Part shown: one piece after another, positions 30,760-35,102 of the stretch
How positions within the stretch are numbered: the first letter of the stretch is position 1
Layout of the letters: each line of letters starts with the position of its first letter
Notes under the pieces: generated by a model
Told to the model about the DNA's origin: nothing
Database searches by the model: none
What the model saw: only the letters and a program-made list of their open reading frames with translations
Translations under genes and position numbers: made by a program
DNA from: Halorubrum sp. Boch-26
GTDB lineage: Archaea > Halobacteriota > Halobacteria > Halobacteriales > Haloferacaceae
Length of the DNA: 52,712 bases
Direction: 5' to 3'
Assembly (NCBI RefSeq): GCF_029889805.1
Contig: NZ_JARANT010000005.1
Span: 1-52,712, forward strand

Positions 30760-31143
30760 TCAGACGTTCGCCTCGGCTTCGCCGAGCTCGCGCGCGAGGA
30801 ACTCGGCGATAGAGACGTCCGCCTCCTCGACGAACCGGGCGATCTCTTCGCCGTCGCCGTTCTCGACCACGACGGTCGGGATCAGCTCGATCCCGTACTC
30901 GTCGACGCCCTCGCCCTCCTTGCCGTCCGGTCCCTTCGTCACCGGGAAGTCCTCGATCCGGTCGTCTGGGACGCCGGCGGCGTCGAGCGCGGCAGCGAAC
31001 GCCGGGAGCTGTCGCTGACAGTCGCCGCACCAGTCGCCGCCCCACACGTTGAAGCGGTAGTCGCCTGCCCCGAGCGCGTTCAGGACCTCGTCGTCGAGCG
31101 CGTCGCCGTCGGCCCCGTCGGGCGCGAGCGTTTCGAGCGTCAT
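30760..31143 (-). CDS. Thioredoxin-fold protein with WCGDC active site
   Basis: A 127-residue cytoplasmic protein with a thioredoxin fold. The active site is GDWCGDCQRQLPAF (about 36-49), a CxxC redox pair, followed by a strand GIELIPTVVVENGDGEEIARF with the cis-Pro of the fold. It is longer than classical thioredoxin at the N-terminus, and the loop DFPVTKGPDGKEGEG is charged. It would reduce disulfides or act as a small redox carrier. It is divergent from cysteine synthase across a 148-nt gap, which suggests shared thiol physiology. ATG 31143 is chosen because a TTTACA box lies 25-30 nt upstream. Confidence 0.85.
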   Translation of the reverse strand: MTLETLAPDGADGDALDDEVLNALGAGDYRFNVWGGDWCGDCQRQLPAFAAALDAAGVPDDRIEDFPVTKGPDGKEGEGVDEYGIELIPTVVVENGDGEEIARFVEEADVSIAEFLARELGEAEANV

Positions 31144-31291
31144 GCCGTCCGATACGCCGGGAGACCTTGTAAACGGCGCGACGGCGGCATTTCCGGCGGA
31201 CTGCGCGACTGCGGCAACGGCGGCGGGCGCCGCGAACACGTCTTGCCGCGGTCCGTCGGGCATTTGAGTGCCGGTCCCGTCCGGTCGCGTA

Positions 31292-32209
31292 ATGGACGAC
31301 GACGTGTTGGAGGGGCTCGGCTCGCCGCTGGTGCGAGTCGACGCGCCGCCGGAGACGACGGTGGCCGCGAAGGTCGAATCGCGCAACCCGGGCGGCTCCG
31401 CGAAGGACCGCCCCGCGCTGTACATGGTCGAGGCCGCGGAGGAGTCGGGCGACCTCGAACCGGGCGACGGAATCGTCGAGCCCACCTCTGGTAACACGGG
31501 GATCGGGCTGGCGATGGTCGGCGCCGTGAAGGACTACGACGTGACGCTCGTGATGCCGGACGGGAAGTCGATGGAGCGCCGCCGGCTCATGCGCGCGTAC
31601 GGCGCCGACGTCGAGCTCGTCGACGGCGACATCTCCGCGGCCAAGGACCGGGCGGACGAGCTGGAGGCCGAGGGCGGGATGGTCCAGCTCCGCCAGTTCG
31701 AGAACCCCGCGAACCCGCGGTCCCACTACGAGACGACCGGATCGGAGGTCGTCGAGCAGGTCGGCGACCGGACCGTCGACGCGCTCGTCGCCGGCGTCGG
31801 GACCGGCGGGACCGTCTCCGGAATCGGTCGACGACTCCGCGAGGCGTTCCCCGACGTGCGGATCGACGCGGTCGAGCCGAGCGACAACGCCGTCCTCTCC
31901 GGCGGCGACCCCGGTGTCGACGAATTTCAGGGGATGGGACCCGGATTTGTCGCTCCGAACCTCGACGTCGACCTCATCGGCGAGGTTCACGCGGTCGACA
32001 TCGAGGACGCCGAGGCCGAGTGCCGTCGGCTCGCGCGGGAGGAGGGGATTCTCGTGGGACAGTCCTCCGGCGCCTCGAACCTCGCGGCGAAAGACGTCGC
32101 TGCGGCGCTCCGCGAGTCGGGCGCGTACGCCGGCGACGAGCCGCTCGTCGTCACCGTGTTCTGGGACAGCGGCGAGCGTTACCTCTCGGCCGGCACGTTC
32201 GACGAGTAG
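31292..32209 (+). CDS. Cysteine synthase (O-acetylserine sulfhydrylase family)
   Basis: A PLP-dependent beta-replacing enzyme making cysteine from activated serine and sulfide. The 305-residue protein shows the Schiff-base Lys in RNPGGSAKDR (Lys about 38), the substrate loop TSGNTG (65-70), the phosphate-binding GVGTGGTVSG and a C-terminal GQSSGAS. This motif set fits CysK/CysM; whether O-acetylserine or O-phosphoserine is used cannot be told. It faces away from the thioredoxin-like gene. The promoter is weak (CATTTGAG at about -30). Confidence 0.93.
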   Translation: MDDDVLEGLGSPLVRVDAPPETTVAAKVESRNPGGSAKDRPALYMVEAAEESGDLEPGDGIVEPTSGNTGIGLAMVGAVKDYDVTLVMPDGKSMERRRLMRAYGADVELVDGDISAAKDRADELEAEGGMVQLRQFENPANPRSHYETTGSEVVEQVGDRTVDALVAGVGTGGTVSGIGRRLREAFPDVRIDAVEPSDNAVLSGGDPGVDEFQGMGPGFVAPNLDVDLIGEVHAVDIEDAEAECRRLAREEGILVGQSSGASNLAAKDVAAALRESGAYAGDEPLVVTVFWDSGERYLSAGTFDE

Positions 32210-32254
32210 GTCGTCGACCCGAACGTTGAGTATCGTCGGGCCCGCAGTTCCCCC

Positions 32255-32650
32255 GTGACCACGCACGCCGCACTCCCCGACGACGACTCCGACGGGTCGG
32301 CCGTCGAACCGTCCGAGCAACGGTTCGACGGCCCGTGGCTCCTCGTCCTCGCCCTCGCCGCCGGCGGGTGGAGCGTCTTCTACGCGCTCGACTGGGCGCT
32401 GCTCTCGGCCGGCACCCCGGCTGGCGCCGCCGTCGCCTTCGCCCACGGCTACCTCCTCGCGCCGCTCGCGACCGCCGCGATCCTCCTCGACGCGCTGTCG
32501 CTCGACGAACGGGGGGTCGCCGACTTCGGCCTTTTTAAATGGATGTACGCGCTGGTCTCGCTGGTGGCGCCCCCGGTGGGTGCCGTCTACTACGCGCACC
32601 GCGAGTGGCTGAAGCCGGGCGACCCGGCGCTGCTCGGAGCCCCGCGATGA
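32255..32650 (+). CDS. Small membrane protein, about three helices
   Basis: A 131-residue protein with an acidic polar N-terminus (1-25) and three hydrophobic stretches at about 27-47, 55-80 and 95-115. It ends in a positive YYAHREWLK tail. I do not recognise its family. GTG 32255 is the most likely start. Its TGA overlaps the ATG of the following MOSC gene by four bases, so the two are translationally coupled. Function unknown; it may anchor or regulate the MOSC protein, but that is speculation. Confidence 0.75.
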   Translation: MTTHAALPDDDSDGSAVEPSEQRFDGPWLLVLALAAGGWSVFYALDWALLSAGTPAGAAVAFAHGYLLAPLATAAILLDALSLDERGVADFGLFKWMYALVSLVAPPVGAVYYAHREWLKPGDPALLGAPR

Positions 32651-33204
32651 CGGATAATGCGACGACCGGCTCGGTCCGGGGCCTCGTCACCGCCGCCGAG
32701 AGCGGCGCGCCGCCAGCACTCCGCGAGTCCGTCGAAGTCCGCCCCGGCGGTCTCGCGGGAGACCGGTACCGAAACGGCGACGGGCGCTTCCAGCTCGACG
32801 GCTGCGCCGTCACCGTCGTCGCCGCCGAGGCGCTCGACGCGGTCCGCGCGGAGACCGGAATCGGCGTCTCAGACGGCCGTCACCGACGGAACGTCGTCGT
32901 CGAGGGGTTCGGTGCGACGATGGACGGCCTGCTGGAGGCGACCGTCGCGGTCGGCGACGCGCGCCTGCGACCGACCCGGCGGCGCCCGCCCTGCGCGCAC
33001 GTCGAATCGCTGGCCGGCGAGGCGGGGCTCGCGTCGGCGCTGCGGAACCGCGGCGGACTCTGCTGTGGCGTCGTCGAGCCCGGGCGCGTCGCCGTCGGCG
33101 ACCCCGTCACCGTCGCGGATCCGGACCCGCGCACCGCGGGCGCCGCCATCGCGGACCGGCTTCGCGAACGCTCGGCGGGCGGAGATAACCGACGAGACGG
33201 CTGA
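32647..33204 (+). CDS. MOSC-domain protein (molybdenum-cofactor-sulfurase C-terminal-like)
   Basis: A 185-residue MOSC protein. These beta-barrel domains handle sulfur or bind the molybdenum cofactor, as in YiiM and mARC. The signature parts are LAGDRYRNGDGRFQL (GLxGDR pattern, about 36-50), DGRHRRNVVVEGF and the Cys-bearing PPCAHVESLAG (Cys about 117) that provides the conserved thiol. The ATG overlaps the upstream membrane protein stop (ATGA). It may detoxify N-hydroxylated bases or deliver sulfur; the role is not determined here. Confidence 0.88.
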   Translation: MTDNATTGSVRGLVTAAESGAPPALRESVEVRPGGLAGDRYRNGDGRFQLDGCAVTVVAAEALDAVRAETGIGVSDGRHRRNVVVEGFGATMDGLLEATVAVGDARLRPTRRRPPCAHVESLAGEAGLASALRNRGGLCCGVVEPGRVAVGDPVTVADPDPRTAGAAIADRLRERSAGGDNRRDG

Positions 33205-33223: not shown

Positions 33224-33261
33224 TGTGTGTAATTCACACACCTTCGCTTTGGTCTTTATAT
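33224..33261 (+). promoter_or_regulatory. Operator-like palindrome and TATA box of the DUF3179 gene
   Basis: A perfect inverted repeat TGTGTG-TAATT-CACACA (33224-33240) stands 14 nt upstream of TTTATAT (33255-33261), which lies 23-29 nt before ATG 33284. The palindrome sits where an activator or a repressor blocking TFB would bind. Confidence 0.55.
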
Positions 33262-33283
33262 CGTCGAGTCCGGAGCTTTCACC

Positions 33284-34474
33284 ATGGATCGCACTCGTCG
33301 ATCGGCGCTGGCCGGGCTCGCCGCGGTCGGAGTCGGCGGCGTCACCGGCTGTCTCGGCGGCTTTCCCGACTCGTTCGCCGGCGACGGCGAGGGGGGAGCC
33401 GGAGGCGAATCCGACGGCGGCGACGACTCTGGCGACGACGACTCTGGCGACGACGGCTCCGGCGGAGACGACTCCGGCAACGGGGTGCGCCCGCCCACCG
33501 TCGACGGCGGGTACCACGTCCCGCATGACGCGGAGGACCTCGTCGCGGAGTCGCTCGACGGGGGGGTCGGGAAGGACGGGATCCCCTCGATCGACGACCC
33601 CTCGTTCCGACCGATCGCGGAGGTGACCTACGCCGAGGGGGTGCCGGTGTTCGGCGTCGCTCGAAACGGGGAGACGAAGGCGTACCCCCAACACGTCCTC
33701 TCCCACCACGAGATCGTCAACGACGAGATCGGCGGCGAGCCGGTCGCGGTCACCTACTGTCCGCTCACCGGTACGGCGCAGGGGTTCCGCCGCGGCGAGG
33801 CGACGTTCGGGGTGTCGGGGCAACTCGTCAACTCGAACCTGATCATGTACGACCGCGGGACCGACAGCTGGTGGCCCCAGATGATCGCCACCGGAATCGA
33901 CGGACCGATGACCGGCGAGACCCTCGACGAGTTCCGCGTCGTCTGGACGACGGCGGCGGCGTGGGCCGAGCGCCACCCGGACTCGCTCGTCATGACCGAC
34001 GACACCGGGTACGTGCGCCGGTACGAGAACGACCCGTACGGGAGCTACGCGCCGCTCGGGGGCTACTACGCTCGGGACCGGACGATGTTCCGACCGTTGT
34101 CGTCGCCCGACGAGGGCCACGCGAAGTCGGTCGTCATCGGGGCGCGAACGGTGAGCGGCGCGGTCGCGTTCGACAAGGAGACGCTGCTCGCGGACCGGGT
34201 GCTGACCGGCTCGGTCGGCGGAGGGGGCGCCGACGTCGTCGCCGTCGCGGACTCGATCCTCTCGACCGGTCGCGTCTACCGAAACCCCGAGGGACTGGCG
34301 GTCGAGCCGGACGGTGACGCCTACCGAGTCGACGGCGAAGGCGGCGGGATCGGGGCGGGCGACCTGCCGCTGGAGCCGGTGGTAGCGCTCGACGCGATGT
34401 GGTTCGCCTGGGCGGGGTTCTATCCCGACACCGCGTTCGTCGGCGAGCACACGGGGGCGGGGGATGGCGGCTGA
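33284..34474 (+). CDS. DUF3179 Tat lipoprotein
   Basis: A 396-residue exported protein. The start MDRTRRSALAGLAAVGVGGV holds a twin-arginine motif and ends in lipobox VTGC, with Cys 23 as the lipid anchor. A low-complexity Gly/Asp/Ser linker (about 33-67) then leads to the DUF3179 domain. Conserved parts are AVTYCPLTGTAQGF (Cys about 159) and FGVSGQLVNSNLIMYDRGTDSWWPQ. The family is widespread and unexplained. A single exposed Cys and the partner membrane protein with two Cys suggest redox or metal chemistry outside the cell, an inference. The gene overlaps the next by 11 nt. Confidence 0.9.
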   Translation: MDRTRRSALAGLAAVGVGGVTGCLGGFPDSFAGDGEGGAGGESDGGDDSGDDDSGDDGSGGDDSGNGVRPPTVDGGYHVPHDAEDLVAESLDGGVGKDGIPSIDDPSFRPIAEVTYAEGVPVFGVARNGETKAYPQHVLSHHEIVNDEIGGEPVAVTYCPLTGTAQGFRRGEATFGVSGQLVNSNLIMYDRGTDSWWPQMIATGIDGPMTGETLDEFRVVWTTAAAWAERHPDSLVMTDDTGYVRRYENDPYGSYAPLGGYYARDRTMFRPLSSPDEGHAKSVVIGARTVSGAVAFDKETLLADRVLTGSVGGGGADVVAVADSILSTGRVYRNPEGLAVEPDGDAYRVDGEGGGIGAGDLPLEPVVALDAMWFAWAGFYPDTAFVGEHTGAGDGG

Positions 34475-35102
34475 GTCCGTCTCTCCGACCGAGGCGCCGG
34501 CCGCGTGGGTCGGCGGGCTGATCCGCCGGACCGGGTTCGCCGTCCGCGCGGCGCTCGGTCGGCGCGACGGTCGGACGACGGCTGGGGTCGTCGCGGTCGC
34601 GTACTTCCTCGCGTACAGCGCCGGGCTCCGCCACCTCGGCCTCCGCGACGGCGGGCGCGGCGGAACCGGCTCGGGGCTCGCGCCCGACGTCACCGTCGCG
34701 AGCGACCCGCTCGCGCTCCTGACGCGCCGAGTCGGACCGTTCCAGTACGAGCCCGTCGCGCTGGTCGCGGCCGGTTCGGTCGAGTACCTGTTCGCGCCCG
34801 TCAACGCCGCCATCGGGCTGGGACTCGCCGCGCTCGTCGGGGTCACGCTCGCGGTCTCCGTCGTCGCGTGGCGCGGCCCCGCGGCGTGCCGGATCGGGGC
34901 CGGAGCCGGCGCCGCCGCGGGGCTCCCCGGGCTCCTGTCGGGATTCGCCTGCTGCGGTCCGACGCTCCTCGTGGTGATCGGGGTCCAAGCCTCCGCGGGG
35001 TTACTCGCGGTCGTGCAGTGGTTCCTGCCGGTCGCGGTCCTCGGACTGCTCGCCACGCTGCTGTGGGTCGGGAGTCGCGTCGATCCGGCCGCCGTCGGGT
35101 GA
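34464..35102 (+). CDS. Membrane protein with intramembrane Cys-Cys-Gly-Pro motif
   Basis: A 212-residue protein with hydrophobic segments at about 40-57, 97-113, 115-135, 145-160, 163-182 and 185-203. A conserved-looking Cys pair FACCGPTLLVV (Cys 163-164) lies at the start of a helix, a motif seen in small metal- or thiol-handling membrane proteins such as MerT-like ones. It starts 11 nt inside the end of the DUF3179 gene, so translation is coupled and both proteins must work together or be needed at once. I recognise no family with certainty; the helices may be five or six. Confidence 0.8.
   Translation: MAAESVSPTEAPAAWVGGLIRRTGFAVRAALGRRDGRTTAGVVAVAYFLAYSAGLRHLGLRDGGRGGTGSGLAPDVTVASDPLALLTRRVGPFQYEPVALVAAGSVEYLFAPVNAAIGLGLAALVGVTLAVSVVAWRGPAACRIGAGAGAAAGLPGLLSGFACCGPTLLVVIGVQASAGLLAVVQWFLPVAVLGLLATLLWVGSRVDPAAVG

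Follow-up and report, generated by a model that had tools for sequence, protein, structure and literature searches.

The window (the whole 52,712-nt stretch of Halorubrum sp. Boch-26 DNA analysed here) carries, behind an operator-like dyad, a gene for a predicted lipoprotein of the DUF3179 family (PF11376) and a gene for a membrane protein, hereafter the partner, to which searches of Pfam and NCBIfam assigned no family (Table 1). The coordinates of the two genes agree with the 11-nt overlap claimed in an earlier note on this DNA.

Table 1 Features of the DUF3179-partner locus, in window coordinates
Feature	Position	Strand	Details
Operator-like dyad TGTG-N9-CACA, TGTGTGTAATTCACACA	33224-33240	+	44-60 nt before the DUF3179 ATG
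TATA-like TTTATA	33253-33258		just downstream of the dyad
Predicted DUF3179 lipoprotein, CxxT type	33284-34474	+	396 aa; PF11376 E 4e-87, whole model covered
Putative MerT-like membrane protein with four predicted helices (partner)	34464-35102	+	212 aa

The gene pair, its distribution and its operator

The upstream gene encodes a full-length DUF3179 member (292.8 bits against a cut-off of 27) whose N-terminus, as read from the sequence, has twin arginines at residues 5-6 and a lipobox, VTGC, with Cys23. By these motifs the protein bears the predicted signature of a Tat lipoprotein, and the same residues recur among paired archaeal DUF3179 proteins (R5 in 100%, R6 in 98% and Cys23 in 78/80). 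As the earlier note had observed, there is one cysteine in TYCPLTG (C159-P-L-T162), the only one apart from the lipobox Cys23; it is kept in 80/80 paired DUF3179 proteins, alongside the other conserved residues H142, E143, N146, D147 and D190.

In a survey of 292 haloarchaeal genomes, we found DUF3179 in 157 and the partner in 108. When the lists were matched by eye, DUF3179 was also present in 105 of these 108 genomes; in the remaining three (G025, G068 and G184) the partner matches are only partial. The survey holds 110 other partner places; 80 were inspected with their flanks, and 79 of these 80 have a DUF3179 gene directly upstream on the same strand—the association with a CCGP-bearing partner for which the earlier note had proposed surveying haloarchaeal DUF3179 neighbourhoods. 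At the sole exception (L108, 2800-4300), a transposase-like reading frame, which by eye we take to be TnpB-type, sits at the DUF3179 position; the final DUF3179 residues can still be read, and the partner is intact. The picture of a pair that is kept together, with cysteines that do not vary freely, therefore held up on both counts.

Species genomes scanned with a query made from paired DUF3179 proteins yielded 80 loci, 79 of them with the partner and 20 of them bacterial (all 80 carry CPLT, a biased figure since the query was built from paired proteins). The bacterial pairs belong to Halomonas, Billgrantia, Litchfieldella, Bisbaumannia, Aquisalimonas, Ectothiorhodospiraceae and Pseudomonas, as well as to a Nitrococcus MAG and a spirochaete MAG. 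Among Proteobacteria at large the pair is rare: DUF3179 occurs in 48/398 genomes, and nearly all of those read are unpaired CxxC proteins. Collectively, these findings support a conserved two-gene extracytoplasmic module with an operator and, because the genes have stayed together across haloarchaea and several bacteria, the pair with this shared history probably works as one unit, handling thiols or a thiol-loving metal at the membrane. Within the available portions of the literature on mercury in haloarchaea, MerT/MerF, selenoproteins and DUF3179, we found no paper on the pair, and the published passages there that name DUF3179 are silent on this partner. The window genome also holds a second, partial DUF3179 match (L162, C1:32127-32387; E 3.2e-22, positions 45-126 of 292), apparently a remnant.

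The earlier note had further proposed a dedicated operator. Among 103 distinct regions upstream of archaeal pairs, the dyad occurs exactly in 14 and with at most one mismatch in 41, and 36 of these 41 sites lie at -57 to -61; shuffled controls gave a mean of 1.18 and a maximum of 5, and coding sequence gave 0/136. The dyad thus exists and recurs upstream of haloarchaeal pairs, but it is not strictly private to them, being present also upstream of 3/21 unpaired haloarchaeal DUF3179 genes. Three exact sites occur in the window genome, of which only that of the pair stands at promoter distance; no metal gene was found at the other two (C1:20040 and C145:14450), the former of which overlaps a likely start codon.

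The CxxT motif, the DUF3179 tree and the DUF3179 fold

The third residue after the conserved Cys is Thr in paired DUF3179 proteins and Cys in unpaired ones. Across 258 distinct DUF3179 sequences, we counted 147 paired and 6 unpaired CxxT proteins, and 0 paired and 98 unpaired CxxC proteins, with 4 CxxC sequences cut by a contig end and 3 unreadable sequences set apart, and with paired loci over-represented because many were fetched for carrying the partner. The window protein, being CxxT and paired, is thus unlike other DUF3179 members, which are CxxC or, as published, UxxC/T. This division favours the main rival to the interpretation we prefer, a thiol-redox relay in which the lipoprotein would act as a thiol oxidoreductase or in repair: a CxxC form (98 proteins, unpaired) would resolve its own disulfide, and a CxxT form (147/153 of them paired), lacking the resolving Cys, would be reduced or oxidised by CC and C142 of the partner in the manner of CcdA/DsbD. 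We hold it less likely than the preferred reading, though ahead of the other rivals, on grounds that follow from the tree and from the partner. In its favour too, the passages of two reviews that list PF11376 as a selenoprotein family give the motif as UxxC/T, Sec forms that suggest a reactive Cys (PMC9312934, PMC13188914). Some haloarchaeal members are named '(seleno)protein' in plasmid records; with TGA read through, we found no U at the C159 position in 255 readable DUF3179 sequences, and the window protein has Cys there.

To place these motifs in a phylogeny, we masked the trait column and used a tree of 159 DUF3179 proteins, reduced from 208 by excluding proteins shorter than 230 residues, those with no readable Cys, contig-end cuts and near-copies. 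On this tree CxxT requires 2 changes and pairing requires 2 changes, and CxxT falls in one well supported clade (109/159 rows). Independent, repeated evolution of CxxT together with pairing was accordingly rejected, and the counts of 147, 6, 0 and 98 are therefore not 251 independent cases; what is repeated is that the pair has been retained throughout this clade, in archaea and bacteria alike, with changing surroundings. Of the unpaired CxxT proteins, L188 lies inside the paired clade and represents partner loss, L310 and L361 form long separate branches, L378 is a broken gene, and L301 and L368 are sisters of all paired DUF3179 proteins. Because these two sisters have CxxT and no partner, the Cys-to-Thr change would most simply have come first and the pairing afterwards, each once. 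A change that seems older than the partner argues against the thiol-redox relay, in which the partner makes up for the missing Cys.

The structure model of the lipoprotein (pLDDT 87, pTM 0.81) is of an internally duplicated beta fold, and profile comparison of one half with the other points the same way (P 3.8e-4, reversed control 0.19; P 3.4e-10 once unpaired members are added). The window protein has no Cys in its second half. Searches by sequence found no relatives of solved structure. When predicted residues 128-224 were compared with solved folds, the best match reached Z 6.9 (89/103 residues at 2.8 A; the tool advises 8), and the best 33 rows are all proteins that we take, by title or family, to be Rieske-domain proteins. 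Unlike Rieske domains, the window protein has neither of the cluster-ligand motifs C-x-H and C-x-x-H, and profile comparison with 21 haloarchaeal Rieske domains gave no signal (P 0.15, reversed control 0.047). Rieske homology by sequence was rejected on this profile result, and the likeness appears, from the model, to be one of fold only. An alternative built on it would give the lipoprotein, on its Rieske-like fold, a metal centre with a structural or electron-transfer role, loaded or anchored by the partner, with iron or copper destined for assembly instead of detoxification. The 33 best rows and the conserved residues H142, E143, N146, D147, C159 and D190 are consistent with such a centre; a Z below 8, the missing profile signal and the absent ligands make it improbable.

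The membrane partner and its likeness to MerT

The partner's motif FACCGPTLL spans residues 161-169, so its vicinal cysteines are C163 and C164. These are highly constant in haloarchaea (C163 in 78/81 and C164 in 79/81), as is a third cysteine absent from the earlier note, C142 (78/81), and all three are invariant in an alignment of 69 archaeal and bacterial partner proteins. Such constancy bears on the idea that only co-expression or protein assembly holds the genes together, with the partner as an anchor or stability factor and the cysteines structural. The gene overlap and the single operator fit this idea; three near-invariant Cys in an otherwise divergent membrane protein speak against it, as does a pair that archaea and bacteria have both retained despite scrambled surroundings, and we regard it as highly improbable.

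An AlphaFold2 model of the partner (pLDDT 82) has helices at residues 34-54, 112-137, 147-172 and 177-205, with a beta-rich outside loop at about residues 57-110. From this model and the charge pattern, the N-terminus is predicted to lie inside and C142 on the cytoplasmic side. The CC pair, which the earlier note had put at the start of a helix, is instead predicted inside the third membrane helix (147-172). Vicinal cysteines in such a position are a better fit to metal transfer than to disulfide exchange, a further point against the thiol-redox relay, as is the finding that the partner has no profile similarity to CcdA/DsbD_TM (PF02683; 6 haloarchaeal members; P 0.1), with which the shared idea is thiol chemistry across the membrane. 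Comparison of the partner with solved folds gave no convincing match (best Z 4.6).

Sequence profiles suggest that the partner is a distant relative of MerT with the CC pair in register. The MerT family PF02411 was matched by 42/48 partner proteins (E up to 10; best E 2.6e-5) and by 39/69 in a broader set (E up to 1), and a profile made from 11 MerT-family proteins finds partner proteins with values down to 8e-9. The window partner alone scored E 0.85 and 10.1 bits, below the cut-off of 32.9. In a profile-profile comparison (hhalign), the match of the partner to MerT (P 1.5e-5) spans profile columns 144-199 and places CC on CC, compared with P values of 0.06 for a reversed control, 0.34 for the N-terminal half of the partner and 0.1 for CcdA. 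A weak match was also seen to MerF (P 0.0048 over 49 columns), a two-helix mercury transporter that shares the CC-x-x-P hairpin pattern, but is less than half the size of the partner and has no DUF3179 protein beside it.

In the passages of PMC5715351 that describe it, the MerT path leads from the Cys pair of MerP to Cys24/25 in the first membrane helix of MerT, then to Cys76/82 at the cytoplasmic face and on to MerA; MerT, too, is listed as a selenoprotein family in the relevant passages of PMC9312934 and PMC13188914. The pair resembles MerP-MerT in joining an extracytoplasmic Cys protein to a small membrane protein, and the partner resembles MerT in its vicinal CC and cytoplasmic-side Cys, both as predicted, and in a profile similarity that, over the CC hairpin, is distant yet significant. 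There are also differences. The surface protein is DUF3179, whereas MerP is an HMA domain; the partner has four predicted helices, with an added N-terminal half and the beta-rich loop; and where MerT has a second, cytoplasmic Cys pair following its second helix, none was found after the CC hairpin of the partner, whose one cytoplasmic Cys, C142, precedes the CC helix. Unlike the Mer path, with a thiol pair at each station, the relay here would have one pair and two single Cys.

Gene surroundings and a candidate soft-metal relay

Mer genes lie near a minority of pairs. In Pseudomonas mendocina EF27, merA-merP-merT is divergent from merR-grx-DUF3179-partner (grx, glutaredoxin), and in a second Pseudomonas the merT, merR and glutaredoxin genes stand beside the pair in the same positions. 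Halomonas sp. DQ26W, Billgrantia antri and Halobacterium sp. TGN-42-S1 have MerA over the TIGR02053 cut-off at most about 7 kb away from the pair. For the bacterial loci, 4/20 near mer corresponds to P 7e-7 if one mer locus per 4 Mb is assumed, a value that ignores both the clustering of resistance islands and the close relationship of two of the four; these neighbours may reflect only shared resistance islands. Most pairs have no mer gene nearby: no match to MerA, MerP, MerT or MerR was found near the window pair, unlike MerP-MerT loci in this respect, nor was MerA over the cut-off found anywhere in the window genome. Across haloarchaea, MerA over the cut-off is present in 35/292 genomes, 15 of which have the partner against 12.9 expected (P 0.28), so MerA and partner are independent; a genome-wide mercury link was rejected on this result, and because of it we do not claim a 'mercury system' as such. 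In one haloarchaeon (L377, G011:C6:60823-62298 and 62956-63855), an unpaired DUF3179 gene and a MerA gene over the cut-off are separated by about 0.66 kb.

Redox genes also adjoin DUF3179 and are consistent with the thiol-redox relay: the glutaredoxin gene of P. mendocina, thioredoxin-domain genes beside unpaired DUF3179 in Thiothrix and Pseudanabaena, and, next to some of the haloarchaeal pairs, genes for DsrE-like proteins and for disulfide reductases other than MerA.

Weighing these findings, we tentatively prefer, at a little less than an even chance, a reading in which the pair relays a soft (thiol-loving) metal ion from thiol to thiol, much as MerP and MerT do, but with another surface protein in place of MerP. 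The surface-anchored DUF3179 protein would bind an ion, with Hg(II) or Cu(I) as candidates, at Cys159, presumably with neighbouring side chains replacing the lost second Cys; the ion would then pass to Cys163-Cys164 inside the partner's third membrane helix before reaching Cys142 at the cytoplasmic face. The earlier note's suggestion of metal or thiol transfer between surface and membrane gains support from the distant MerT kinship, the invariant Cys, the listing of DUF3179 and MerT as families with Sec or Cys, and the mer genes near the pair in some bacteria; a metal as the ligand and cargo, the order of transfer, its inward direction and the contact between the two proteins are what we infer. 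Counting against a metal relay are the sub-cut-off MerT score of the window partner, the independence of MerA and partner in haloarchaea, the lack of MerA over the cut-off in the window genome, the lack of mer genes near most pairs, the chance that mer neighbours mark shared resistance islands, and the single Cys at two stations where the described Mer path has thiol pairs. A single Cys is also an odd carrier for two-coordinate Hg(II).

Possible, and held with more doubt, is the proposal that the pair represents a second, independently assembled Mer-type relay, in which a duplicated, Rieske-like CxxT DUF3179 protein stands in for MerP, and a four-helix MerT-like carrier receives from it a soft metal, either as such or as a thiolate complex. 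Such a relay would occur widely among haloarchaea, with halophilic bacteria sharing it, and the lost second Cys of DUF3179 would mark the hand-over to the partner's CC. If a soft-metal relay is what the pair forms, archaea without classical mer genes would carry a common entry system for soft metals or thiols on a MerT-like core, with a testable role both for DUF3179, mostly known as an unexplained (seleno)protein family, and for the unnamed membrane family of the partner, and with a bearing on the origin of MerT-type carriers. With two genes, one operator and four conserved cysteines, the pair is tractable for functional work.

Turning to the wider surroundings, a conserved larger operon is unsupported: shadow frames aside, the next families occur in at most 39/161 loci, as judged from a clustering of reading frames within 6-7 kb in which, the DNA being GC-rich, the pair's own antisense and shadow frames made for noise. 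In 11 loci (L101, L107, L128, L129, L131, L139, L142, L085, L213, L227 and L233; family checked for L128), a 2Fe-2S ferredoxin-like gene in the same orientation precedes the pair by no more than about 1 kb, and a DsrE-like gene lies near the pair in 14 loci at varied distances. In L105 (2872-6564), genes for a disulfide reductase (NF004946), a DsrE-like protein, DUF3179 and the partner follow in a row on one strand, the reductase ending in a C-terminal QHH tail that is histidine-rich in relatives such as that of L080. Upstream of the window pair, positions 30760-33204 hold a gene on the minus strand for a thioredoxin-like protein, one for a PALP protein (pyridoxal-phosphate, cysteine synthase-like) and one for a MOSC protein. 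Around the bacterial pairs (L216-L247), a Pfam scan of 79 reading frames chosen from 180 gave matches to sigma-70, DUF2064, DUF302, glycosyltransferase and MerR families, 2-5 each, with 3-5 for each of the first four. Finally, in Thiothrix (L163, 2540-6822), a CxxC DUF3179 gene stands beside genes for a GDCCVxC (seleno)protein, a DUF4395 protein and a thioredoxin-domain protein.
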